From contig SCKJ01000009.1 in the NCBI GenBank assembly GCA_004124875.1, forward strand, positions 1 through 64,000: 64,000 bases of DNA, written 5' to 3'. The notes under the pieces were generated by a model, which made no database searches, was not told the DNA's origin, and saw only the letters and a program-made list of their open reading frames with translations. The stretch comes from Fidelibacterota bacterium. Lineage in GTDB: Bacteria > Fidelibacterota > Marinisomatia > SCGC-AAA003-L08 > TS1B11. The translations under genes were made by a program, and so were the position numbers. The first letter of the stretch is position 1, and each line of letters begins with the position of its first letter. Below are positions 1,752 to 25,721 of the stretch, in pieces.

Positions 1752-4697
1752 ATGGCAGCACCGGATACCGTTCTCGAGCTGGTTGAGCGATTCGATAGTA
1801 ACATCGATGCCTATCGCTCCGGCCATTACAAAGAGACGCAAGTACGGGTAGAGTTTATCGACCCCTTTTTTGAGGCGCTGGGGTGGGATATCCACAACAA
1901 GGCCGGCAATGCGGAAGCCTACAAGGATGTTGTCCACGAGGCGGCGGTTAAGGTTGGCGGCTCCACAAAAGCGCCGGACTACAGCTTCCGCATAGGCGGC
2001 CACCGCAAGTTTTTCCTGGAGGCCAAAAAGCCGTCGGTCGATATCGAAGGCAACCCCCACCCCGCCTTCCAGTTGCGCCGCTACGCCTGGTCGGCCAAGC
2101 TGCCGCTATCCATCCTCACGGACTTCGAGGAGTTCGCCGTCTACGACTGCCGCGCCAGGCCGGTGCAGAGCGACAAGTCCTCCCATGCCCGCACCCTCTA
2201 CCTGACTTATAAAGACTATGCCGACCGGTGGGACGAACTCTATGGGCTGTTCTCCAAGGAGGCCGTGCTCAAGGGGGACTTCGACCGTTATGTGGCCTCC
2301 ACCACCAAAAAGCGCGGCACCGCCGAAGTGGACAGCGCCTTCCTCAAGGAGATCGAGCAGTGGCGGGACGCCCTGGCCCGCAACATTGCCTTGCGCAACA
2401 AGGACATTACCCAGCGCGACTTGAATTTCGTGGTGGGCCGCACCATCGACCGCATCATCTTTCTGCGCATCTGTGAGGACCGCGGCATTGAAAACCCGGA
2501 CCAGCTGCGAGCCCTGCAAAATGGCCCCCATGCCTATAAGCGGCTGCTGGCCCTCTACCACCGGGCGGATGACCGCTACAATTCGGGACTGTTCCACTTC
2601 CGGGCCGAGAAAAACCGGCCCACGCCCCATGATGTGATTTCTCTGGCCCTGCACATTGACGACAAGGTCCTCAAGGACATTGTCAAGTCGCTCTACTACC
2701 CGGATAGCCCCTACGAGTTCTCGGTCCTGCCCGCCGACATTCTGGGGCAGGTGTACGAGCAGTTTTTAGGCAAAGTGATCCGCCTGACAGCCGGGCACCA
2801 GGCCAAGGTAGAGGACAAGCCGGAAGTAAAAAAGGCCGGCGGCATCTACTACACCCCCACCTACATCGTCGACTATATCGTGGAGCATACCGTGGGCAAG
2901 CTGCTGGAAGGCAGCACCCCGCGCAAAGCAGCCAAGCTGCGCATCCTCGATCCCGCCTGCGGCAGCGGCTCTTTCCTGCTGGGGGCCTATCAATACCTGC
3001 TCAACTGGCACCGGGACTGGTACCTGCGCGACGGCAAAGGCAAGCACAAAAAGGAGCTGGTGCAGACCGGCACGGACGATTGGCGCCTCACCACCGCTGA
3101 GCGCAAACGCATTTTGCTCAACAACCTCTACGGCGTCGATATTGACGCGCAGGCGGTGGAGGTCACCAAGCTGGCGCTGCTGCTGAAAGTGCTGGAAGGG
3201 GAGTCGGCGGAGACCATCAACATCACCCTCAAGATGTTCCACGAGCGGGCGCTGCCGGACCTGGGCAGCAACATCAAGTGCGGCAACTCGCTCATCGGTC
3301 CCGATTTCTACGAGAATGTGCAGATGAACCTGCTGGATGAGGAGGAGCGCTTCCGCATCAACGTGTTCGACTGGCAGGCGGAGTTTCCCGACATATTGGA
3401 CCGCCGGGATAAGCAGGGCCAGCGCCGGGCGGACAAGCAGCAGGGCTTCGATGCGGTGATTGGGAATCCGCCGTGGATTAGTGCTTGGACTGGAGAAAAG
3501 GGTATTCGAACCTACCTTGCGACTAAGTTTGAATCTCTTTCAGGCCACTGGGATATGTACTTGGCGTTTTTACATCGAACAATAGATCTACTCAATGCTA
3601 ATGGTAAGCACTCGTTTATTTATCCTACTTCACTCCTCACTGAACCCTATGCCGCTGGTGCACGGAAAATGCTCATTGAAAAAGACCTCATTGCCCGCTT
3701 ATCTGATTTTGGTATTGAGAGAGTATTTAAGAAAGTCTCTAGAAAAGCATGCATATTGGTTCTGGATAAAAAAAGAATAAATGATGTTGTAATCATAGAC
3801 AGTTGGAAATCAGGCAAAATTGAAAAAACTTCAGTAATTAATCCAGCACTATGGGCCATTAACCTGAATTACATATATTCTCTTTCATCTTCAGAGCGGG
3901 GAGCTGATTTAAAAAAGAAAATTGATAAATTGTCAATAAGGGTAGGCAATATATACTATGTAAATTATGGGGCACAAATTTCAAGTAAAATTAAAGGTGA
4001 GTTCACTAAAGACAGGCTGCTTCATAAACTTAATACAAAAAATTCAAAAAAATGTCTAATTGGGGCAAATGTCAAAAGGTATTTTATTGAGTGGGATAAT
4101 TTGTATCTGGATTACCAACCCGCTATCATGTATGGCCCTCGCCACCCAAAGTTTTTCGAGTCAAAAAAAATCATTGTGAACAAAACTAGTTCTAAGGGTT
4201 TTAACATAATTGCCACCTATGATGCGTATGGCTACTATTGTGATCAACGATTAATCTGTCTTGTTGAGTACAAGCATTTGGCCGACACGCCTTTAAGGCT
4301 CAGCTTCAAAGGCTATACCAAATTTGATACAGAGGGGCTCGAATTATACCATACGGGTGTTCTAAACTCGAAACTTCTGTCTTATTACTTTTCAAATTAC
4401 ATCGCAACGAAGAACCTCCAGGGAGGCTATACCGATGTATTACCAAAGATGGTCAGATCGCTTCCCCTGCGCACCATCGACTTCTCCGACCCTACCGACA
4501 AAGCCCGCCACGACCGCATGGTGGCGCTGGTGGAGGATATGCTGGCCCTGAACAAGCAGCTGGCCGCCGCCGAAGGTGAGCACACCCAGGTGGCCTTGCA
4601 GCGCCAGATAGACGCCACCGACAAGCAGATTGACCGGCTGGTGTATGAGCTCTACGAGTTGACGGAGGAAGAAATTGGGATAGTGGAGGGATTATAG
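1752..4697 (+). CDS. Type IIG restriction enzyme/adenine methyltransferase (Eco57I-like)
   Basis: Single-chain restriction-modification enzyme of 981 residues. An N-terminal PD-(D/E)xK nuclease site is visible (P75-D76 ... E90-A-K92), then a helical linker, then an N6-adenine methyltransferase core with AdoMet motif I DPACGSGSF starting at D400 and catalytic motif IV NPPW at 572-575. The C-terminus ends QIDRLVYELYELTEEEIGIVEGL, typical of this family. The coding sequence is GC-rich up to motif IV, abruptly AT-rich for residues about 577-896 (methyltransferase end plus target-recognition region), then GC-rich again, which points to exchange of the specificity part. A GAGGA lies 12 nt before the ATG. 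It should act alone, cutting unmodified foreign DNA and methylating the host sites. Confidence 0.93.
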   Translation: MAAPDTVLELVERFDSNIDAYRSGHYKETQVRVEFIDPFFEALGWDIHNKAGNAEAYKDVVHEAAVKVGGSTKAPDYSFRIGGHRKFFLEAKKPSVDIEGNPHPAFQLRRYAWSAKLPLSILTDFEEFAVYDCRARPVQSDKSSHARTLYLTYKDYADRWDELYGLFSKEAVLKGDFDRYVASTTKKRGTAEVDSAFLKEIEQWRDALARNIALRNKDITQRDLNFVVGRTIDRIIFLRICEDRGIENPDQLRALQNGPHAYKRLLALYHRADDRYNSGLFHFRAEKNRPTPHDVISLALHIDDKVLKDIVKSLYYPDSPYEFSVLPADILGQVYEQFLGKVIRLTAGHQAKVEDKPEVKKAGGIYYTPTYIVDYIVEHTVGKLLEGSTPRKAAKLRILDPACGSGSFLLGAYQYLLNWHRDWYLRDGKGKHKKELVQTGTDDWRLTTAERKRILLNNLYGVDIDAQAVEVTKLALLLKVLEGESAETINITLKMFHERALPDLGSNIKCGNSLIGPDFYENVQMNLLDEEERFRINVFDWQAEFPDILDRRDKQGQRRADKQQGFDAVIGNPPWISAWTGEKGIRTYLATKFESLSGHWDMYLAFLHRTIDLLNANGKHSFIYPTSLLTEPYAAGARKMLIEKDLIARLSDFGIERVFKKVSRKACILVLDKKRINDVVIIDSWKSGKIEKTSVINPALWAINLNYIYSLSSSERGADLKKKIDKLSIRVGNIYYVNYGAQISSKIKGEFTKDRLLHKLNTKNSKKCLIGANVKRYFIEWDNLYLDYQPAIMYGPRHPKFFESKKIIVNKTSSKGFNIIATYDAYGYYCDQRLICLVEYKHLADTPLRLSFKGYTKFDTEGLELYHTGVLNSKLLSYYFSNYIATKNLQGGYTDVLPKMVRSLPLRTIDFSDPTDKARHDRMVALVEDMLALNKQLAAAEGEHTQVALQRQIDATDKQIDRLVYELYELTEEEIGIVEGL

Positions 4698-4713
4698 GTT
4701 GCCGGAAGTAATC

Positions 4714-5151
4714 ATGAATATTCTAGTGAGCCTCCTTGTGGGATCCATCCTGGTTTTCCTAGGGTATCGCCTTGGCAGAAGAGGGGATCGGGCTGCGAGA
4801 AAAGTCGAGAGAAAAGTCGCAAAACAAGAACAAGAATTCAATAGAATTGAGGGGATGTTGCGATGCTGCGGAAAGATATATACGGCAGCCAATTTTGCTA
4901 CGTCTGACCCGATTCACGCATCGAAATTATTACATGAGTCTCGATCGTGGTTTGATGAGAATTGCATAGCCTACAGGACTGAAGAGCCGTATAAAGAATT
5001 TGAGTTTCTTTTGAAATGGGTATCTAGTTACACATCCAATTCAGATGTTTTTGCGAAGGGAACCGGAAAAAGAGGAAGTAGCCTGGAAATGTTTGACAGG
5101 ATCACGGATCTACAGGATAAGCTCAAAAAAATGCTAGATGAGATGAAGTGA
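4714..5151 (+). CDS. Small single-pass membrane protein next to the RM gene
   Basis: Unrecognised, 145 residues from the ATG at 4714, which has GGAAG 6 nt upstream and is preferred over the TTG at 4699. The N-terminus is one hydrophobic helix (about residues 3-18) followed by a strongly basic stretch (RLGRRGDRAARKVERKVAK), then a coiled-coil-like segment and a mixed helical C-terminal domain. Topology suggests a short periplasmic N-end and a cytoplasmic domain. The base composition is AT-rich like the recognition region of the adjacent restriction enzyme, which ends only 16 bp upstream, so it belongs to the same accessory block. Function unknown; a defence accessory role is only inferred from position. 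Confidence 0.7.
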   Translation: MNILVSLLVGSILVFLGYRLGRRGDRAARKVERKVAKQEQEFNRIEGMLRCCGKIYTAANFATSDPIHASKLLHESRSWFDENCIAYRTEEPYKEFEFLLKWVSSYTSNSDVFAKGTGKRGSSLEMFDRITDLQDKLKKMLDEMK

Positions 5152-5204
5152 AAATAAAATGATGATTAGTATCAGCTAAATCTGCTCCAACATTCCTCGA
5201 GTGC

Positions 5205-5346
5205 CAGATTGACGCCCTGGTATATGAGCTCGGAGTTTATCCCGCCGTGCTCCGCTATATCACAGGACAGGCGGGAGGCTGACGGAGGCGGAGATCCGGC
5301 TCATCGAAGAGACGCCGGACAGGTAGGGATTGTGGAGGGAGTGTAA
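5205..5346 (+). pseudogene. Relic of a second type IIG enzyme C-terminus
   Basis: Three short pieces match the C-terminal tail of the restriction enzyme ending at 4697: QIDALVYEL (5205-5231), LTEAEIRLIEE (5279-5311) and GIVEGV-stop (5326-5346). They are separated by unrelated bases and an in-frame stop, and no upstream part of the gene remains. This is the eroded 3' end of a lost or recombined sister gene, left between the small membrane protein and the DUF3800 gene. Confidence 0.7.
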
Positions 5347-5366
5347 ACGGTGATACGGCTTATCCG

Positions 5367-6050
5367 ATGAAACTATTTGGCAAAAGTAAGTTTATTTTCT
5401 TTGATGAAGCCGGAGATATGAGCTTTTCTCCCAAAGCGTCTCGTCATATCGTGGTCATCGCGCTTCATATAAATGAACAATCCGAGGAACTGATGACGCA
5501 CTACTGGAATTTGAAGCACACTCTGTACGCACACCCACCCACGGATTTGGAAGTTCGTCGCCGTTTCCAAAACAAGCGATTTCACGCTTCGGAAGATCCA
5601 CAGGAAGTTAGAAACGCGTTTTTCTCGCTCATCACTAAATTCTTGCCCATCATCCGCGTAAGGGCTCTCATATTAGACAAAAATCTTATTGAGGATAAAC
5701 ATAGAAATGACCAGTGGTTGGCGGACAATCTATATTTTTACATCTACAAATCAATTGGCGAACGATCCAATTGGCTGTCGGCCAATGGGAATACACAGTT
5801 GCTTTTGGATTCTACAGAAGATGGGCGCATTAAAGATGGCGCAATTAGAGGAATTAGAAAAGCTGAGAAGATTGTGGGGCTCGGTACGCGAGCAAATATT
5901 TTGCACGTATCGAGTTATCAGCATCCCTTTCTCCAGGTCGCCGATTACTTCTGTTGGGCGATATATAAAAAATACGAAAACTCAGATGAACGGAGTTACG
6001 GAAAAATAGAAAAGGGGATCGAGGATGTGTGGGAGTTATTTAAAAATTGA
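5367..6050 (+). CDS. DUF3800 family protein
   Basis: 227 residues with the two family landmarks: an N-terminal acidic strand FIFFDEAGD (residues about 9-17) and a C-terminal LQVADYFCWAIYKKY helix, in the arrangement of DUF3800, which is thought to have a nuclease-like (RNase H-type) fold. Such proteins are frequent in defence islands and near restriction-modification genes, but their activity is uncharacterised. The gene is AT-rich, follows the relic restriction-enzyme tail by 20 bp and ends at a strong inverted repeat, so it closes the plus-strand defence block. No clear Shine-Dalgarno before the ATG. Confidence 0.8.
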   Translation: MKLFGKSKFIFFDEAGDMSFSPKASRHIVVIALHINEQSEELMTHYWNLKHTLYAHPPTDLEVRRRFQNKRFHASEDPQEVRNAFFSLITKFLPIIRVRALILDKNLIEDKHRNDQWLADNLYFYIYKSIGERSNWLSANGNTQLLLDSTEDGRIKDGAIRGIRKAEKIVGLGTRANILHVSSYQHPFLQVADYFCWAIYKKYENSDERSYGKIEKGIEDVWELFKN

Positions 6051-13299: not shown

Positions 13300-13722
13300 C
13301 TATAGCAGTTCCGTCACCAGCACCGTGTAAATAAAGCGGATGCCTTCATCCGTCTGGTCCATGGCGTTTGAGGTGCCACCGTGCCACCGGTAATTGCCGC
13401 CGGTCGAATAGGCCGAATTGTTGTCCAGCACCCGCTTGGCCCGGGAGGCGAGCTCCCGCCGGTAATCGTCCAGGACCGTCTGCGTCCCTCCAGGGGCGAT
13501 GGCAGAGACAACTTCAACGGGATAACTGCTGGTAAGGGCGCCGGCCGGCCGCGCGATAAATTCCGTTTCCAGGGGCCAGATCCTGATGCTTCTGCGGGGC
13601 CCCTTGGTGCGCGGCGAGCTTGCGGCGTAAATGATGGCCCCGGTGCCGAATTCCGTGGACAGCAGTGATTTCACCCCGGCCACGACCCGGTCATAGACGA
13701 TGTTTTCGTAGGTGGTGGCCAT
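13300..13722 (-). CDS. Tail terminator / completion protein
   Basis: 140 residues; the opening MATTYENIVYDRVVAGVKSLLS and the mixed alpha/beta pattern with a C-terminal strand (FIYTVLVTELL) fit the minor tail proteins that cap the tail tube. It lies between connector and tail tube, and its ATG shares one base with the preceding stop (TGATG), so it is translationally coupled. Assignment rests on synteny and size. Confidence 0.55.
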   Translation of the reverse strand: MATTYENIVYDRVVAGVKSLLSTEFGTGAIIYAASSPRTKGPRRSIRIWPLETEFIARPAGALTSSYPVEVVSAIAPGGTQTVLDDYRRELASRAKRVLDNNSAYSTGGNYRWHGGTSNAMDQTDEGIRFIYTVLVTELL

Positions 13723-14687
13723 CAGTAGCGCGCCGTGGAGATGCTTTTCAGGCCACTGTTATCTGCCTGTAGCTGCCGGCCGAAGAGCTCCAGTTCCCAT
13801 TCATCGTTCAGTGCGGCGCTGTCGCCATCGTTGCCTTCGAACAGCAGAGACAGGCCCATGCCAATGTTGCACTTCTGGTAGAGTTTCAGCATTTCGCCTC
13901 CGTCATCCGTCCATGCTTTGCTTTTGGGCGTATCGCTGTCGGCATCAAACCCGAACACTTTAAACTTTGCCGTCCCCGCAGCGCCGGCGGTGGAGATGAT
14001 GATTTTGAGCCGGTCATGGCCTGTGCCGGTCCACTCGCCGAACGTGCGCGTTAAGTGGATGCCGCCGGCAATGGTCCCCATTTCCCTTATCTCACCGGTG
14101 GAAGAATCGGCGTCAATCTCTCCCGCCAGTTTGATCCAACCGCCGTTGATGCCGTCAATGATGCCGGTCTTGTCGGCATTGGTGAGCCGCTCCCGATAGC
14201 TCTGTGCCAGGGCCGGTTCGCGACCCTCAGCCAGCAGTTCGCCGAGCTTGTAGGCGGTGGCCTGCTTGATCACCTCATCATACGCGCCTGAGTTATCCCG
14301 CGGCACGGGTGTGGGGTGCGTGGCGTCAATGAGGGCGTCGATCAATCGCGATGCCGACTGGATAATGGCGCCTACGTAGGCGCTGTGATCCTCTCCGGCG
14401 AGGATCTCCTGGATCGCCGGATCGGTGGCGCTTTGCAGGTAAACGGTGTCGGTTGCGGCCTCGTAGAACCACTCCCCGTTGGCGTTCACATCAACTAAAG
14501 ACGATTCCGGATTGCCCAGGTCCTCGCCATTCTGGAACAGGACCGAGACGGCGCCGGCCTGAAAGGATTTGTAGACCGATCCGCTGTGGACGATCCATCC
14601 ATAGATGGGGCGCATGCTGCTCAGCAGCGACGCGGCATCGGGAGCATAGCGGTAAAACTCGCTTTCGGTGATGTAGCTATGCGCCAT
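13722..14687 (-). CDS. Head-tail connector with C-terminal beta domain
   Basis: 321 residues from ATG 14687 (MAHSYITESEFYRYAP), which overlaps the stop of the 55-residue gene upstream; an upstream in-frame start at 14729 would add 14 unlikely residues. The helical parts (ITESEFYRYAPDAASLL, IIQSASRLIDALID, KLGELLAEGREPALAQSYRERL) resemble the Gp36/DUF1320-like adaptor proteins below the portal. A beta-rich domain of about 130 residues is attached at the C-terminus (residues 200-321), an unusual fusion. Role: adaptor between capsid vertex and tail. Confidence 0.55.
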   Translation of the reverse strand: MAHSYITESEFYRYAPDAASLLSSMRPIYGWIVHSGSVYKSFQAGAVSVLFQNGEDLGNPESSLVDVNANGEWFYEAATDTVYLQSATDPAIQEILAGEDHSAYVGAIIQSASRLIDALIDATHPTPVPRDNSGAYDEVIKQATAYKLGELLAEGREPALAQSYRERLTNADKTGIIDGINGGWIKLAGEIDADSSTGEIREMGTIAGGIHLTRTFGEWTGTGHDRLKIIISTAGAAGTAKFKVFGFDADSDTPKSKAWTDDGGEMLKLYQKCNIGMGLSLLFEGNDGDSAALNDEWELELFGRQLQADNSGLKSISTARY

Positions 14688-14844
14688 GGTCCCGGTTCCT
14701 GTCACGGAGCATTTTGAGCCCCCGCACAATCACATTATCAAGCGGGTTGGGTGTCCGGGTAGCCAAGGCATCGGCGGCCCAGAGCGCCACAGTGATGATG
14801 GCCAGGCGCACTTCAAGCGGTAGAGAATTCCACATTTCAGGCAT
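14677..14844 (-). CDS. 55-residue membrane-helix phage protein
   Basis: Short gene with a strong Shine-Dalgarno (AAGGAG, 6 nt before ATG 14844). It encodes MPEMWNSLPLEVRLAIITVA... with one hydrophobic helix (LAIITVALWAADAL) and a basic tail (GLKMLRDRNRDHGA). The stop overlaps the connector's start by 11 bp. It is the first gene after the repeat/terminator copy at 14.9-15.07 kb. It may be a small membrane or holin-like protein; nothing further can be said. Confidence 0.65.
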   Translation of the reverse strand: MPEMWNSLPLEVRLAIITVALWAADALATRTPNPLDNVIVRGLKMLRDRNRDHGA

Positions 14845-14887
14845 TAGCGTCTCCTTGGCGGGATGTCGGTTCGTGCTTATTGAGTGA

Positions 14888-15072
14888 TAGCGTCACACGC
14901 AAAAAGGTCCGGGATAGAGCGGTTCATACTCTATCGCGAACCTTTGAATGTCGGACCCCAGCGGATCAGGCCGAGGTTGCGCGGTGAGGCTAGATCAGCG
15001 TCACCTTAACAGCGATGAACTTGGCGGGGGGAAGAATGAGGGGCAAGGGGAAATGTTGGAGGAGGGGGATTA
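14888..15072. repeat. Long direct repeat, copy A
   Basis: About 180 bp that matches 20526-20765 in order, by eye roughly 75-80% identical with small gaps. Shared blocks include AAAAAGGTCCGGG, GAGCGGTTC, GGCGGATCAGGCCGAGG-type sequence, CACCTTAAC and a G-rich end. Each copy has a terminator hairpin and each touches a cargo gene block on its high-coordinate side. No open frame is conserved, so it looks like noncoding, possibly regulatory or recombinogenic sequence. Confidence 0.75.
14901..14945 (-). terminator. Terminator hairpin in repeat copy A
   Basis: Minus strand: AAAGGTTCGCGATAGAG, a 9-nt loop, then CTCTATCCCGGACCTTTTT. The long imperfect stem is followed by T5, so it should end transcripts coming from the cargo genes (15079-16980) before the phage connector/tail genes. 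Confidence 0.65.
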
Positions 15073-15078
15073 AGGGGA

Positions 15079-15387
15079 CTATTCGCCTGGCTGTATTACC
15101 ATTGAGGATAATTCCAATAGCATGAAACGTGTTTGTTCATCTTTTTCTCCGATTACGTCGGTGTGCGCCTGATTTTCTTCACCAATAATATTAACAGGCG
15201 TGTGAACAACAGATTGACCTGGAATCAATCTGACACCCCTTACTCCCAATGATAACACCCCATACCTGCTTGGCTCATTTGGAAAGCTCGGGCCGGGCCG
15301 TGTTGCCTCTGGTGATGCATATTTTGACCAATTCGTACTCATTTCTTGATCCCGGAAGGTGATGGGCATCAAATCCCGACCGTTCAC
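15079..15387 (-). CDS. Cargo cassette gene C, uncharacterised
   Basis: Third gene of a three-gene cassette. From the GTG at 15387 it encodes 102 residues, but the frame stays open and protein-like upstream to 15456 (adding ...FKQEIIPDDDELYKRVSPAH before the GTG), with no ATG, GTG or TTG there. An ATA at 15454-15456 lies 4 nt after the stop of gene B and 9 nt after AAAAGG, so a non-canonical or mutated start is likely and the full protein would be about 125 residues. Visible motifs: LYKRVSP near the extended N-end, MSTNWSKYASPEATR, GVLSLGVRGVR, AHTDVIGEKDEQTR. From memory these resemble an uncharacterised family found beside gene-B-like proteins. No function can be given. Confidence 0.65.
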   Translation of the reverse strand: MNGRDLMPITFRDQEMSTNWSKYASPEATRPGPSFPNEPSRYGVLSLGVRGVRLIPGQSVVHTPVNIIGEENQAHTDVIGEKDEQTRFMLLELSSMVIQPGE

Positions 15388-15460
15388 ATGCGCGGGAGAA
15401 ACTCGTTTATATAGTTCGTCATCGTCTGGGATGATTTCTTGTTTAAAGCTCGCTATTTTG

Positions 15461-16237
15461 CTAATCCTTTTCCAGCAGGAAAAGTATCATTGCACTCAGA
15501 ATTTCACCACGATCAAGGGATCCTTTAAAATCCCTACCGCTATCAGTTTTGCCAAAAAAGCCAATTCTCTCACTGGGTGCGGGACTTATATTAACGAGGA
15601 AGCCATAGCGATGATTAGCCCAGTGGACATCGATACTGCCATCCGGTCCCGGGTATAGGTTCGGGGCATCTAAGACAATTTTTTCCGAGTTGAATATTTT
15701 TCCTGCATAATCCGACAAAAAATGGCCTGCTGCTGCAAGCGTCTCAACCTCATAACCTATGCTCCCCTCATCATCCCAATTCTCTTGAAGATCAAGAATC
15801 CACTGAGAATCTAGGATTGCCGAACGAATATTGGCCAACTCATCACTTAGATTTTCAGCAATTTCCTGCAACTCACTGATGCTTGCTATTTCGACCGAAC
15901 TGGATGTCTCAGTTGATGTAATGATGCGCTTAGCATCATTATCATTGACAGATACACTCCGGGATAGCTCTTTAATTTGGGAAGTGTCAACGCCTCGATC
16001 CCCAAGATAATAGGCTGCAATTAATCCCGGATCTATATAAGGGTACACTAGGTGTGTAGAAGTTACAAACTGCCAAGCGGGTAACGAATTTGTCAAGTCC
16101 TGACCAATTATAAACGCTTGTGATTCTCTAGCTGTTTTGTTTACAAAGTATGGGTGGGCAAGTTTGCCCTGGTTCGGATCAAGCAACAGAACCACACTGT
16201 CATCGCTGGGGTTGTGATCAAAATACTCGGTTTTCAA
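15461..16237 (-). CDS. Cargo cassette gene B, uncharacterised
   Basis: 258 residues, ATG overlapping the stop of gene A by 4 bp. The first half is variable; a central helical segment (ISELQEIAENLSDELANIRSAI) precedes the conserved-looking part LQENWDDEGSIGYEVETLAAAGHFL ... NLYPGPDGSIDVHWANHRYGFLVNISP. The 'NWD-G' turn and 'P-DG-I--W' strand recall a widespread uncharacterised family often encoded next to gene-C-like proteins (memory, not searched). AT-rich compared with the phage genes around it, hence probably acquired separately. Function unknown; cargo in a prophage makes defence or toxin-antitoxin roles plausible. Confidence 0.75.
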   Translation of the reverse strand: MKTEYFDHNPSDDSVVLLLDPNQGKLAHPYFVNKTARESQAFIIGQDLTNSLPAWQFVTSTHLVYPYIDPGLIAAYYLGDRGVDTSQIKELSRSVSVNDNDAKRIITSTETSSSVEIASISELQEIAENLSDELANIRSAILDSQWILDLQENWDDEGSIGYEVETLAAAGHFLSDYAGKIFNSEKIVLDAPNLYPGPDGSIDVHWANHRYGFLVNISPAPSERIGFFGKTDSGRDFKGSLDRGEILSAMILFLLEKD

Positions 16238-16980
16238 GGTTTATCTCCCTCTCTAACGGTCTCAAGGCCCAGATCAAGAAATTCCTCAAATAGGGCATGA
16301 ATTTTAGACTTCGATATCTTTCTTTTTACATTAAACTTGGAATTAATATCAAGATCGAGCTGGCATTTATAGATTGTCAAATGCGTATTTTTAGCCACAC
16401 CGCTAGCGGCCGCTTCGATTTCAAATGAAATATTCTCTATTAGCGACCATTTATTAAATCTGTTGATAACGAGGTCTGTTCCATAGGACTTACTGTCCCG
16501 GGGTCTGTTGATTTGAAAATTAAAATCTTTGACTTTTTGGAGGTCCAATTGCAGGTCAGATATGTAGTTTCCAAGCACTTTATGTCCTTCCTCGAAACTT
16601 TCCACATATTGCGTCAAGCGGGCACCATGTGCTATTCGTGTGATACTAGGTAAGCTTTTAAGTTTAGACCATTTCTTCACTATGCTACCCATCAGTTTTG
16701 ATCCGTCAGCGTAAATCCCCCACTCTCTTGGCTGGTTGTCTTTTCCTACCTCCTTACTATTTGCGATAAAATCAATTTTGTTACCTTTTCGAGAAATCCC
16801 AAATAGCAAGTTCTCATATTCTCCAACAACATTATACTCTAACTGCTGTGGCTTATTCGAAATATCTGTAGGATTTGCCCCAGTTATCTGGGTCCACCAT
16901 TCCTCGAGTGGGATTATATCGAGATCTGCTGTAAATGCACTAAAACGCACAGACCGCAAATCCCAAATTGAATCAGCCAT
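16234..16980 (-). CDS. Cargo cassette gene A, TIGR04255-like
   Basis: 248 residues, first gene of the cassette. Patterns such as RSVRFSAFTADLDIIPLEEWW, ITRIAHGARLTQYVESFEEGHKVLGNYI, DFNFQINRPRDS, LVINRFNKWS and YKCQLDLDINSKF follow the plan of the sporadically distributed TIGR04255 family (strand, GA-x-L helix, F-x-x-x-x-N-R, lDiN near the end). That family has no known function. The gene is AT-rich with a weak Shine-Dalgarno. It is probably cotranscribed with genes B and C and ended by the hairpin in repeat copy A. Confidence 0.65.
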   Translation of the reverse strand: MADSIWDLRSVRFSAFTADLDIIPLEEWWTQITGANPTDISNKPQQLEYNVVGEYENLLFGISRKGNKIDFIANSKEVGKDNQPREWGIYADGSKLMGSIVKKWSKLKSLPSITRIAHGARLTQYVESFEEGHKVLGNYISDLQLDLQKVKDFNFQINRPRDSKSYGTDLVINRFNKWSLIENISFEIEAAASGVAKNTHLTIYKCQLDLDINSKFNVKRKISKSKIHALFEEFLDLGLETVREGDKP

Positions 16981-17162
16981 ATTCTAATCTTCGCCTTACT
17001 TCTATGGTTCGCGATCCGCAAAAGTTATTTTCTATCCCCGCAATCTCGTCCATGGAAATTCCAATCCAATTGTTGCGAGTTCTACTAATGTGTTGTACTG
17101 GGCACGACGCAATTGGTTTCCCCCAATATTAACGGCGGTTCTAGTAGACATTCAACTACTCC

Positions 17163-17279
17163 CTACCGCCCCCTCACCATCTTCCATAGGGTTACGGTGC
17201 CAATCGCGAGGGTAATGGCTGCCCCACCGACGCGCAGCACTATCAGGATGCCTTCGGCGTCGAGGAAAGAGGGGGTAAA
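17163..17279 (-). pseudogene. Start-less relic of the holin-like gene
   Basis: 39 codons (FTPSFLDAEGILIVLRVGG, then AAITLAIGTVTLWKMVRGR and a stop) match the C-terminal two thirds of the gene at 17737-17904 (FAEGVLLGLRIGGAAITLAIG...). The frame meets a stop and a terminator hairpin immediately upstream and has no start codon. It is a truncated duplicate left when cargo sequence entered between the copies. Confidence 0.7.
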
Positions 17280-17280
17280 T

Positions 17281-17304
17281 AAAACCCCTCAGGAGAGGGG
17301 TTTT
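17281..17304. terminator. Bidirectional intrinsic terminator
   Basis: Perfect 10-bp stem AAAACCCCTC / GAGGGGTTTT with a 4-nt loop AGGA; T4 on either strand. It lies downstream (minus strand) of the DUF2283 gene and insulates it from the cassette at 15079-16980. Confidence 0.85.
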
Positions 17305-17345
17305 GGATGCTAACAATGTTAGAGGGTGAATATTTCTATCGGTTG

Positions 17346-17630
17346 TTACCTGGGTACGCTATGGTGTCTTGCCATCGAGGGCAGGAGATGAACAGGGATA
17401 TGAGAGAGTTCCATCTCTGATGGATCATTGGGCAAATCAATATGGTTTGATATCCCGATGAATTCCATTCCAAGAACTTCTCCGGAGGTACCAATATCGG
17501 CAGTTATCCAATCTGAAAAGTCCTGGTTGTGACTGAATGTCCCATCCTGGTATTTGATGTAAAATGAATCCACTAACGGGTCATAACTGTACTCTATGTT
17601 ATCAGCTGTCCAACTGATCAAGGGGCTCAT
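17346..17630 (-). CDS. DUF2283-like small protein
   Basis: 94 residues. ISYDPLVDSFYIK-type opening (here YSYDPLVDSFYIKYQDGTF) followed by an acidic strand and SGEVLGMEFIGIS fits DUF2283, a family of small proteins often paired with DUF4258-type or other toxins and suspected to be antitoxins. No partner toxin is seen next to it. Shine-Dalgarno AAGGA 8 nt upstream of the ATG. AT-rich relative to phage genes; flanked downstream by a bidirectional terminator, so it is its own transcription unit within the cargo. Confidence 0.6.
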   Translation of the reverse strand: MSPLISWTADNIEYSYDPLVDSFYIKYQDGTFSHNQDFSDWITADIGTSGEVLGMEFIGISNHIDLPNDPSEMELSHIPVHLLPSMARHHSVPR

Positions 17631-17736
17631 CTCAATTTCCTTTTTCGTATACTGATACGGTTACCACAATTTCCGTGCCATTCTCAATAGTAGTATCGTC
17701 AGAGTTCTATTGAAAAGAATTATTATCCGCCCCCTC

Positions 17737-17904
17737 TTAAGCCCCCTTCCGCCTCCTTAACATTTGAATGACTGTGACGATACCAATGGCCAGGGTAATG
17801 GCTGCGCCTCCGATCCGCAGACCGAGCAGCACGCCCTCAGCAAAAGTGAGGGCTGTGCCGGCAACGGTGACCACCATGGCCAGCGCCGGCCGGGTCTGGA
17901 TCAT
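17737..17904 (-). CDS. Small two-helix membrane protein, holin-like
   Basis: 55 residues from ATG 17904 (MIQTRPALAMVVTVAG); a longer start at 17973 would add a Pro/Trp-rich leader that does not look coding. Two hydrophobic helices (ALAMVVTVAGTALTF and IGGAAITLAIGIVTVIQML) and a basic tail RRRKGA give the shape of small phage holins, though its place between head genes and cargo is not a classical lysis locus. A truncated second copy lies at 17163-17279. Confidence 0.6.
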   Translation of the reverse strand: MIQTRPALAMVVTVAGTALTFAEGVLLGLRIGGAAITLAIGIVTVIQMLRRRKGA

Positions 17905-20525: not shown

Positions 20526-20765
20526 GCGTCCACTGACGCAAAAAAGGTCCGGGGCAGAGCGGTTCTGACTCTACCACGAACCTTTTGAATGTCAAGACCC
20601 GGCGGATCAGGCCGAGGATCGCAGTGGCGATTCTACAAGTCGTAGACTATTACCGCCACCTTAACTGCCATGAAATTGGCGGGGGCAAGAATTAGGGGCA
20701 ACCACAAAGTGATCAACAGGTTAAATTTTTAGACTGGCGAGGCGTTGTTGGGAGGGGGCGCATTA
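20526..20765. repeat. Long direct repeat, copy B
   Basis: Second copy of the repeat at 14888-15072, slightly longer because of insertions (about 20640-20660 and 20700-20745). It begins with a terminator hairpin, runs through the shared GCGGATCAGGCCGAGG block and the CCACCTTAACTGCCATGAA block, and ends in a G-rich stretch before the DUF4145 gene. The stretch 20487-20819 contains no other gene that I can support. Confidence 0.75.
20541..20586 (-). terminator. Terminator hairpin in repeat copy B
   Basis: Minus strand: AAAAGGTTCGTGGTAGAG, loop, CTCTGCCCCGGACCTTTTTT. The stem is less perfect than in copy A but the outer AAAAGGT/ACCTTTT pairing and the T run are kept. It would stop transcription from the DUF4145 cargo before the scaffold/capsid genes. 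Confidence 0.6.
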
Positions 20766-20819: not shown

Positions 20820-21479
20820 TTATTTCATTTCTGGTTTGTTAGCCTCAACAAGTTTTGCATTCAATGCTGCGCGTTTTGACTTGAGAATTGCTGGCTGGAC
20901 GAAATAAAAATCAAATAGAGATTCAAGTACATCAAGATTCCATTCAGATTCACCTGGTTCAACTGGCAAAATTTCTCCTGTATTTGAACTCTTTATTGGG
21001 TGTGCTGCAAAGTTTCCTAGGTTGCGTATTGCATCAATAGACTCTGCGAGGTGACTTGGCAATTGATTGCTATCTATCACTTGCTGTATTTCATCGGCAA
21101 GGTTTCCCGGGCTAACGTTTGCATGCTCTCTTAATAGATGCTGCAAGCAGCGACGACTCAGTGCCGCACTGGCCTTGGGACTATCATCGAGCACCATACA
21201 AGCCTCATAATAGTCAGCCGATATGTCTTCTGGGATTTCCGGTCCAATTGGCTCTCGGCTCATCATTTTTGGGCGAGCTAAATAAGCAGCAGGAAAGGTT
21301 GTTATTGATCCAGGGCCATTATCCACTTGATTTCTATTCCCAGATATTATCCAAATGATGATTTTGTTGCATTCTGGACACTTGTCATGGAGCACACCCC
21401 AATCGTTCTCGGCATCATTACCAATATAATTCTTCCTACCGCCGTGAAAAAATGATGTATGACAATGAGGGCATTTCAT
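20820..21479 (-). CDS. Zinc-ribbon DUF4145 protein
   Basis: 219 residues. N-terminal zinc ribbon (MKCPHCHTSFF ... CPECNKII, two CPxC knuckles) followed by a DUF4145 domain: IPEDISADYYEACMVLDDSPKASAALSRRCLQHLL ... LAESIDAIRNLGNFAAHP ... VEPGESEWNLDVLESLFDFYFVQP. DUF4145 is to my knowledge related to HEPN domains and is often fused to or encoded with restriction or abortive-infection proteins. The R-N-L-G-N-F-A-A-H segment is the best candidate for an active or binding site. AT-rich cargo gene in the phage module, 60 bp downstream of a related membrane protein. Confidence 0.85.
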   Translation of the reverse strand: MKCPHCHTSFFHGGRKNYIGNDAENDWGVLHDKCPECNKIIIWIISGNRNQVDNGPGSITTFPAAYLARPKMMSREPIGPEIPEDISADYYEACMVLDDSPKASAALSRRCLQHLLREHANVSPGNLADEIQQVIDSNQLPSHLAESIDAIRNLGNFAAHPIKSSNTGEILPVEPGESEWNLDVLESLFDFYFVQPAILKSKRAALNAKLVEANKPEMK

Positions 21480-21538
21480 ATATAATTCCTGTTAATAATA
21501 ACACATCCGGTAGTATGGGCGGGAATCTTTTATTTATT

Positions 21539-22105
21539 TTAGATCTTAGCATCCAAAGCTTTAAGAAGGCGAGGGCCAATTTCAATTGCCCAGATTGTAG
21601 ATCTGGCGTCATTACTTTCTGCGTGAACCGCATTATTAAGGATTACTATCAGATCAAGTAATACCGAAGACTCTTGGTGACCAATAATTTCTGTATTTTT
21701 AAGTATTTGGATCAACCTGCCAACACCTTGCCTCTCCGTTCCGATACCATGCGATTTTGCAATTTTCTTTATTCGAGATTCAATTTCAATGCGAAGCCCG
21801 GCAAGTGCAAAAGCTGGATCACTGGTGGAAACTTGTTGAAACGAGTATTCGTGTAGTTCATCATCTGGTATAGGATCCGATACTAATCCAATCTCCTCCG
21901 CCCGTTCTGTGATCCTTTCAATATCTCTGAATTGGACTTTGAAACCACCGGGCAATTCTAAGGATTTAAGAAGAGGAGCAATCCAGGGCAATATTGAAAT
22001 AATTATCAAAACCAGCGAGGTAGCATCAATTGTAATTGTCGCAGACAAAGTATTCGCTACTGCCAGTGACAACGTGAGGATCGAAATTAGGATTCTTGTC
22101 AGCAT
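21539..22105 (-). CDS. Membrane-anchored DUF4145/HEPN-like protein
   Basis: 188 residues. Two hydrophobic helices at the N-terminus (residues about 3-22 and 28-48), a short linker (LELPGGFKVQFRDIERITERAEEIG), then a helical domain with LRIEIESRIKKIAKSHG and DLIVILNNAVHAE, the N-x-x-x-H pattern seen in DUF4145/HEPN-like domains. It is the upstream partner of the soluble zinc-ribbon DUF4145 gene and shares its AT-rich composition. A membrane sensor/effector pair for phage defence is a reasonable inference, not shown. Confidence 0.7.
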   Translation of the reverse strand: MLTRILISILTLSLAVANTLSATITIDATSLVLIIISILPWIAPLLKSLELPGGFKVQFRDIERITERAEEIGLVSDPIPDDELHEYSFQQVSTSDPAFALAGLRIEIESRIKKIAKSHGIGTERQGVGRLIQILKNTEIIGHQESSVLLDLIVILNNAVHAESNDARSTIWAIEIGPRLLKALDAKI

Positions 22106-24494: not shown

Positions 24495-25721
24495 TTACCA
24501 GATGGGGGCCGGATCGTAGGTCACCCGGCGGCTGGTAATGGGGAAATTATATTCGATGGCATAGCCGGCCGCATCGGAGGCGTGGGTTCGCGCGGGATCC
24601 CGTTTGTCCACTTGATCGCCCGACCAGACACAGCTCTCCAGATCACGGATCAGATGCGGGCAGCGCCCCGGCGCTATGGTCAACTGCCGCTCCTTCAGCA
24701 GCCGGTTAACGGCATTGACCCGCGATCTCACAGGGGGCTGCATGGCATGCGTCCGCAGCCGAAATCCGGACTGCCGCAATATCTCATGGTCCGATCCGGT
24801 CGAGCTGGTATGCCGGGCGCGGCCACTGGGATCGGGGTACACGGTGATGCCGGGGTAGCGCTGATTAAGGCGGTCGGCCAGCTCAAAAGTGGTGGCGTTG
24901 AACAGACGAATCTCATCGATAAAATGAATCCAGCGCGGACCCGCCACAAATAGCTCGGCCGTGAGATAGTCCACATTGAAGTCGATGCCGCAGGAAACCG
25001 GCAGTCCGCCGTGGTCCATGGGCGCAAGATGGATCTCCCGATCGAAGGGACGATAAACCCTGCCCGTGGTCAGATTGACAAATTGGCCCTCAAGATAGGC
25101 GGCCTGCATCTCTTCGGTAAACGCCGACCGCAAAGTGGCCAGGTAGTGCGGCGGCAGGTGGATGTTGTCGCTCGTTCTGGCCGTGACCACGCCCACATCG
25201 TAGCGGGACTCGTCATTGATAGCCACTTCGTAGCCCCAGTTCATGGTTTCAGGGGTCCCGGTAAGAAACAGCTCCCGCTGGGGGGCAGCAGGATGTCTGA
25301 CTCTGGCCAGCATCTGGTTAAACACCACCCGCGGCTGGATGAACGGTTCGTCGATGCCCGCCCATGCCAGGTTGGGTCCCTTGAGACCATCGGGTGAGTC
25401 GCCCGAGCCGATCCAGATATGGCCGTCCCAGTTCGAAATGTGGAAGGTGTGATCGGAATGGTGATGCGTATAGCGGATGCCGGCGCCATCGAGAAGCGCC
25501 TCCAGCGTTGGAATAATGGTCCGCTTGGCAATGGGGTAAGACGGCGAAACATACTGACCCGGCAATCCGGCATTGCGGTAGGAGAGCAAAATAGAACGCA
25601 TGGCGCCGATGTGGGTCTTGCCGGAGCCGTACCCGCCCACCAGCAACTTGATGAAGTTGGGCAGCTCCCACCACGCCCTTTGAGGTGGCAACATGCGCCG
25701 CTTGTCGAGGAAGAATTTCAA
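24495..25721 (-). CDS. terL: Terminase large subunit
   Basis: 408 residues; ATP-driven packaging motor and nuclease. Walker A GGYGSGKT at residues 29-36, Walker B with LAWAGIDEP, the coupling motif LFLTGTPE, and an RNase H-type nuclease: GIDFNVD, VYPDPSG and a final HASDAAGYAI acidic position. Complete length for a compact terminase. The TTG start overlaps the small-subunit stop (TTGA), so the two are translationally coupled. All catalytic positions look intact. Confidence 0.92.
   Translation of the reverse strand: MKFFLDKRRMLPPQRAWWELPNFIKLLVGGYGSGKTHIGAMRSILLSYRNAGLPGQYVSPSYPIAKRTIIPTLEALLDGAGIRYTHHHSDHTFHISNWDGHIWIGSGDSPDGLKGPNLAWAGIDEPFIQPRVVFNQMLARVRHPAAPQRELFLTGTPETMNWGYEVAINDESRYDVGVVTARTSDNIHLPPHYLATLRSAFTEEMQAAYLEGQFVNLTTGRVYRPFDREIHLAPMDHGGLPVSCGIDFNVDYLTAELFVAGPRWIHFIDEIRLFNATTFELADRLNQRYPGITVYPDPSGRARHTSSTGSDHEILRQSGFRLRTHAMQPPVRSRVNAVNRLLKERQLTIAPGRCPHLIRDLESCVWSGDQVDKRDPARTHASDAAGYAIEYNFPITSRRVTYDPAPIW

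Follow-up and report, generated by a model that had tools for sequence, protein, structure and literature searches.

A foreign three-gene cassette in a prophage head module

The window, as we call the whole 64,000-nucleotide stretch of DNA analysed here, contains a prophage of a deep-branching marine bacterium, in whose head module three genes form a compact cassette on the minus strand:

16234-16980, minus strand: gene A, 248 aa, slot 1 of the cassette
15461-16237, minus strand: gene B, 258 aa, TTG start, slot 2 of the cassette
15079-15465, minus strand: gene C, about 125-128 aa, slot 3 of the cassette, with a putative non-canonical start near 15456-15465 and an AHTDV motif

The original prediction described three overlapping, AT-rich minus-strand genes, and the reading frames, GC, GC3 and codon usage bear this out, as does the 4-bp overlap that it gave for A and B (TTGA). 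The C-terminal core of B (approximately residues 140-258) carries the motifs NWDDEGS and P-x-PDGSIDVHW. The frame of C is open from 15486 to 15079 on the minus strand and overlaps the stop of B. Its sole canonical start, GTG 15387, would give a protein of 102 aa, and no ATG, GTG or TTG occurs in the frame ahead of the conserved N-terminus IPDDDELYKRV, from which relatives of C align to it. Because a GTG start would remove this aligned N-terminus, we infer that translation of C begins upstream of GTG 15387 at a non-canonical codon, for example ATT 15465, which overlaps the stop of B (GATTAG), or ATA 15456. A purine-rich site lies ahead of these codons.

The GC and GC3 of A (0.40 and 0.39), B (0.44 and 0.40) and C (0.45 and 0.41) fall below those of the phage's own genes (GC 0.51-0.63, GC3 0.58-0.80). 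In codon usage the three genes lie 0.30-0.40 from the phage core, whose genes are 0.12-0.20 from each other. A, B and C are thus foreign to the phage in both codon usage and GC.

Searches with the three proteins gave no convincing family match in Pfam, NCBIfam or PHROG and nothing convincing in PADLOC, where A and C had zero matches at E up to 10. No toxin domain was matched in Pfam, NCBIfam or PADLOC, and family and solved-structure searches returned no recognised catalytic signature and no solved relative, with chance matches only for the solved-structure queries A1-A3. When A, B and C were each run singly against viral contigs, nothing was found. By tblastn, B and C had no match in plasmids, and in phages they matched only a B core standing alone in an uncultured phage of 636 kb.

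Related prophages were sought across the phylum with the major head protein as query. Two syntenic prophages were found in related genomes: locus L071 in genome G010 (head protein 83% identical) and locus L072 in genome G009 (72%). The following features of the window enter the comparison:

13722-14729, minus strand: phage gene of 335 aa downstream of the insert, with orthologues in L071 (69%) and L072 (42%)
14933-14948, plus strand: left arm of an imperfect 16-nt inverted repeat that brackets the cassette
17000-17015, plus strand: right arm of this repeat, matching the left arm at 14/16 positions
17161-17258, minus strand: partial duplicate of a small hydrophobic phage gene at the upstream edge of the A-B-C cargo, 70% to 17744-17841
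17346-17630, minus strand: DUF2283 gene (Pfam PF10049, 1.6e-5), another AT-rich insertion at this hot spot
17744-17841, minus strand: resident copy of the duplicated stretch, within the phage gene 17737-17973
17978-18367, minus strand: phage gene of 129 aa upstream of the insert, aligning with L071 12059-12465
18776-19645, minus strand: major head protein (phrog_267, 7e-24), the anchor of the empty-site comparison
24495-25721: terminase (phrog_2, 4e-33)

L071 has orthologous genes on both flanks of the cassette site. Window positions 14005-14772 align with L071 11065-11832 and window positions 17762-17880 with L071 11919-12037, leaving 3.0 kb of the window (14773-17761) against 86 bp in L071. 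L072 likewise lacks the cassette; there, 1 kb separates the 335-aa gene and the head protein. These two prophages without the insert confirm the predicted cargo position. Absent from syntenic relatives, foreign in composition and equipped with its own terminator, the cassette is a phage moron, a piece of foreign cargo that occupies a hot spot within the prophage head module.

The inverted repeat around the cassette was reached in 0 of 60 flank shuffles, although it is short and constitutes weak evidence. The DUF2283 gene falls inside the region absent from L071, and a 98-bp partial duplication separates it from the A-B-C block, both copies of the duplicated stretch (17161-17258 and 17744-17841) matching L071 11919-12037. 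This arrangement would fit two separate insertions at a single site.

Beyond the stop of C lies an element that recurs elsewhere in the window:

14897-15046, minus strand: cargo-end element of about 150 bp with a terminator hairpin (stem 14900-14945)
20536-20701, minus strand: second copy of the cargo-end element, 76% identical (E 9e-27), downstream of a second cargo block

A terminator hairpin had been predicted after C. The hairpin exists (z = -2.3) and is kept in three copies of the element with compensatory changes, but it sits 135-180 bp past C and not directly after it. Relatives of the element also occur at the second hot spot of L071 (14488-14683), where the cargo differs. Recurring at the ends of cargo blocks in this phage group, the element may mark cargo sites or aid recombination. 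The second AT-rich cargo block (20820-22105, minus strand) lies between scaffold-like and portal-like genes. It encodes a DUF4145 protein (20820-21479) matching PADLOC PD-T7-4 (E 1.6e-20), along with a protein of 188 aa that has a membrane N-terminus. At the same site, the G010 prophage carries another insert (L071 15082-16985) and the G009 prophage almost none.

A third possible cargo or defence stretch lies beyond the tail genes (window 1752-6050, plus strand), near three tRNA genes (128-1015). Read by eye, its genes comprise one like type IIG restriction-modification (981 aa), one for a small membrane protein and one resembling DUF3800. Another three-gene cargo, at the tail end of G010's prophage (L071 1682-2792, minus strand), consists of small, AT-rich, overlapping genes (95, 151 and 115 aa); the last appears HEPN-like by eye, which may put a HEPN in the third slot.

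A modular three-gene operon family

B and C had been proposed to belong to families that co-occur outside this phage. A neighbourhood search found them paired in Deltaproteobacteria, Chitinophagaceae, Saprospiraceae, a Mycobacterium plasmid and Neomarinimicrobiota, so that the refuting case named with the prediction, families never together elsewhere, falls away. Profile tests gave E 5e-10 for B_win/B_1 and 2e-4 for C_win/C_2. The Mycobacterium paragordonae plasmid encodes a MobF relaxase followed by a TIGR04255 protein, B and C; its B assignment is firm (B_myc/B_1, E 2e-7), and the best profile match of C_myc is C_win (E 0.013).

The first gene of most such B-C operons is TIGR04255. A second copy of the operon, in the window's own genome, starts with a genuine TIGR04255 gene (1.7e-39); behind it come a relative of B (28% identity to window B, E 8e-4) and a third ORF. 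Across 245 Neomarinimicrobiota genomes, TIGR04255 is present in 12 (14 genes), and the genes behind it are B-like and C-like in every evaluable case except one. A B profile run against the same genomes retrieved nine genes; eight stand directly behind TIGR04255 and the remaining one is window B. TIGR04255-B-C lies at one fixed site adjoining rumA (and ligA where the contig reaches) in five genomes of the host family, and this site spans several genera of the family. The operon in Candidatus Neomarinimicrobiota TS1B11 (L025) encodes the same proteins as that of G010 (L012), on which basis the host is assigned to the Neomarinimicrobiota. The fixed site in five genomes suggests vertical inheritance and perhaps a resident role, and a defence gene that roams would not normally keep one place.

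The first gene varies or is missing in other B-C operons. An operon in Deltaproteobacteria UBA6106 (L022) has an unrelated 221-aa first gene, a B (45% over the core) and a C that aligns with window C over its whole length (39% identity), and it adjoins a gene resembling a phage or plasmid Rep protein. L023 and L024 contain B and C without any A, and the L024 pair adjoins a DNA methyltransferase and restriction-type genes (read by eye). A solo B core, 38% identical to window B, is present in very large phage contigs (L020 5986-6363 and LR756504.1 631820-632173).

Substitution extends to the second and third slots. Relatives of window A in genome G007 are followed by a HEAT-repeat protein and not by B, in one case with an unrelated third gene; no homology was found between the N-termini of window B and the HEAT middle protein. 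TIGR04255 precedes a HEAT-like protein and a 171-aa protein on a Crinalium plasmid, an HTH protein and a Cys protein in Acinetobacter, and a 70-aa gene and a Cys protein beside an Abi-family gene in Methylocystis. On the Methylocystis plasmid (L065 2509-5511), an 'abortive infection family' gene and WGR fragments stand directly upstream of the TIGR04255, 70-aa and 192-aa operon. Viral contigs L004 (4980-6642) and L005 (3597-5304) encode TIGR04255, a membrane-anchored small solenoid and DUF7689, and a third, L051 (299-1958), looks like them. The DUF7689 proteins of these viral operons have conserved NC-W and HAARQ motifs and seem papain-like by eye. In Thermus, TIGR04255 is joined by a 192-aa gene and a HEPN gene (4e-6), with overlaps of 17 and 1 bp; by eye, this HEPN has Asp in place of the His of catalytic HEPNs. 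A zeta toxin in the third slot in Vibrio is kept as a loose case only, its 107-bp gap leaving room for coincidence.

Slot 1 thus holds TIGR04255 or the A family, slot 2 the B family or a HEAT, small solenoid or HTH protein, and slot 3 the C family, DUF7689, a Cys protein or a HEPN protein. The spacing of genes 1 and 2 is -38 to +9 bp in all but one operon measured, and 15 of the 17 operons measured for both genes overlap there by 4-38 bp. Settings include mobilisable plasmids and other plasmids with a relaxase gene or an Abi-family neighbour. The cassette therefore belongs to a modular, mobile family of three-gene operons across several bacterial phyla in which slots are swapped.

No publication on TIGR04255 or DUF7689 was found in the literature searched, and none of the family libraries names the whole three-gene unit. 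Mobile small-gene conflict cargo is a known kind; the operon family and its A variant are undescribed in the literature searched. TIGR04255 and its partners, scattered over many bacteria, now form one operon type that is borne by phages and plasmids and swaps its slots 2 and 3. Several orphan families (TIGR04255, B, C, DUF7689 and the 'QSCD/QDCD' Cys proteins) accordingly become one testable system.

Gene A and the fold of TIGR04255

A resemblance of gene A to TIGR04255 had been part of the original prediction. It stands at the level of the operon, TIGR04255 being the usual gene before B-C, but window A fails every sequence test. It has no match at E up to 10 to the TIGR04255 NCBIfam model (cut-off 30 bits), hhalign found no alignment, and against a 23-sequence TIGR04255 profile it scored 0.5 bits, a value reached by 33 of 255 shuffles. 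With four tests negative, membership of window A in TIGR04255 was rejected at the sequence level. Genome G007, from the host family, encodes a homologue of window A (28% over the full length, E 1e-22).

The predicted structure of window A (pLDDT 49) is too low in confidence for a fold claim, although its element order, E H E E H E H E E E H, parallels that of TIGR04255. By eye, two motifs of TIGR04255, SITRI and LDID, seem to have counterparts in window A, namely SITRI where the central strand begins and LDLD in the final strand. Matches of the model to START/Bet v1-like and phage tail-terminator or neck-protein structures were weak (E at least 0.03) and were not used. The sequence tests being negative, we call window A a positional equivalent of TIGR04255, not a member.

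The TIGR04255 protein of the window's own genome could be modelled confidently (pLDDT 81, pTM 0.79), and the model has a beta-alpha-beta4-alpha repeat, as in the TATA-binding protein (TBP). Its best Foldseek matches include yeast TBP (probability 0.98, E 3e-3) and giant-virus TBPs (E 1e-4 to 5e-4), with low TM-scores (0.25-0.31) and no sequence relation; the likeness is drawn for TIGR04255 alone. The element order of this model and these matches point to two TBP-like repeats in TIGR04255, which would place a TBP-like fold in a bacterial mobile operon.

Proposed function and comparison with known systems

The cassette is probably a conflict system of the anti-phage or toxin-antitoxin type. By analogy, the HEPN proteins of the third slot (with a zeta toxin in the one looser case), the mobile setting and the link of B to a PADLOC candidate make a role in defence, toxin-antitoxin activity or signalling plausible. 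A more specific reading, to which we give slightly less than an even chance, is a prophage-borne toxin-antitoxin-like or abortive-infection module with C as effector, B as its partner and A as sensor or adaptor. The prophage would express the cassette during lysogeny as a self-contained unit ending at its own terminator. C would act as the effector, and B would bind C and keep it in check as antitoxin or adaptor. A would bind a nucleic acid or protein whose state shifts on infection by a competing phage or on loss of the prophage, whereupon freed C would stop growth and the module would protect the lysogen and its prophage. Which of the three proteins is effector and which is partner is a guess. 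C is cast as effector and B as its direct partner because they remain paired in operons where A is missing or another gene takes its place; A is cast as a recognition or adaptor subunit because its usual counterpart TIGR04255 has a fold of a nucleic-acid-binding type.

The main doubts about this toxin-antitoxin or abortive-infection reading arise from the fixed chromosomal site in the host family and from the lack of a catalytic signature. Also counting against it are the B-C pairs that lack A (L023, L024), the lone B of huge-phage contigs, the Asp of the Thermus HEPN and the wide gap before the Vibrio zeta toxin. The fixed rumA/ligA site, the second copy in the window's own genome and the predicted TBP-like fold of its TIGR04255 would instead agree with capture by the phage of a resident operon serving regulation or stress. 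TIGR04255-B-C would then form a chromosomal, non-defensive three-protein complex (serving, for example, sensing or TBP-like gene regulation), which the phage copy manipulates or mimics. We consider this unlikely, as TIGR04255 occurs in only 12 of the 245 phylum genomes, its partners are freely swapped, with HEPN among them, and the operons are found repeatedly on plasmids and phages. The presence of a resident and a phage operon with related B proteins (28% identity, E 8e-4) in one genome could also reflect counter-defence or host takeover, the phage copy being a decoy that neutralises the host's resident TIGR04255-B-C. Such a decoy is improbable, given that the phage carries a full operon of three genes, A included, and not a single decoy gene, and that viral contigs hold similar units for which no resident counterpart is known.

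The missing ATG, GTG or TTG before the conserved N-terminus of C raises the question of whether the cassette has decayed and lost its function, with C as a relic. The frames of A, B and C are intact and of normal length, C aligns with the L022 protein from end to end and a purine-rich site precedes ATT/ATA, which leaves decay with little probability. Least of all do we expect A-C to be phage structural or morphogenesis genes of unusual composition, a very improbable account to which only their location inside the head-connector module lends itself. It is already contradicted by their absence from two syntenic prophages whose head modules otherwise match, and homologues of B and C reside on non-phage chromosomes and plasmids. 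The profile search, which gave no convincing match to a phage structural family in PHROG, likewise upholds the original view that A-C are not such proteins.

Beyond this locus, the operons could represent a widespread, undescribed class of tripartite conflict systems that phages and plasmids disseminate. Slot 1 would supply recognition through a TBP-fold protein or an analogue, while slots 2 and 3 would hold interchangeable parts, an adaptor or antitoxin in the former and an effector in the latter. The window would then hold a variant whose slot 1 has been replaced by another family. We advance this class tentatively, as possible but somewhat short of an even prospect.

Toxin-antitoxin-chaperone modules consist of three small, co-directional, overlapping genes, are mobile and vary in their third component. 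The cassette resembles them in its three small, co-directional, overlapping ORFs, its mobility and its variable third component, whereas A-C lack a SecB-like chaperone and show no recognised fold of a toxin or antitoxin, and A comes first.

Another point of contact is PADLOC PDC-M32A, whose C-terminal positions (approximately 265-356 of 375) match the core of B (L022 B 4e-6, window B 0.009), giving gene B a link to a defence candidate. PDC-M32A is longer, its N-terminal 260 positions do not match B, and window B covers only about 80 of the 375 positions at E 0.009. PDC-M32B was not found adjacent to B, and neither A nor C matched any model of PDC-M32. This system has candidate status only and is named for a Sinorhizobium prophage (PMC12429752). 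A weak PDC-M32A match in genome G203, considered as a possible B, is a membrane-protease-like gene instead.

Among the closest counterparts are the TIGR04255 operons (NCBIfam 'sporadTIGR04255'), with which the cassette shares the overlapping three-gene layout and the B and C families in slots 2 and 3. It differs from them in its first gene, which escapes the TIGR04255 model and profile comparison and agrees only in the order of secondary-structure elements in a low-confidence model. The PD-T7-4 neighbour, although of an unrelated protein family (DUF4145), resides in the same phage and is likewise an AT-rich insert followed by the same cargo-end element, and this shared element provides a handle for finding more cargo in this phage group.
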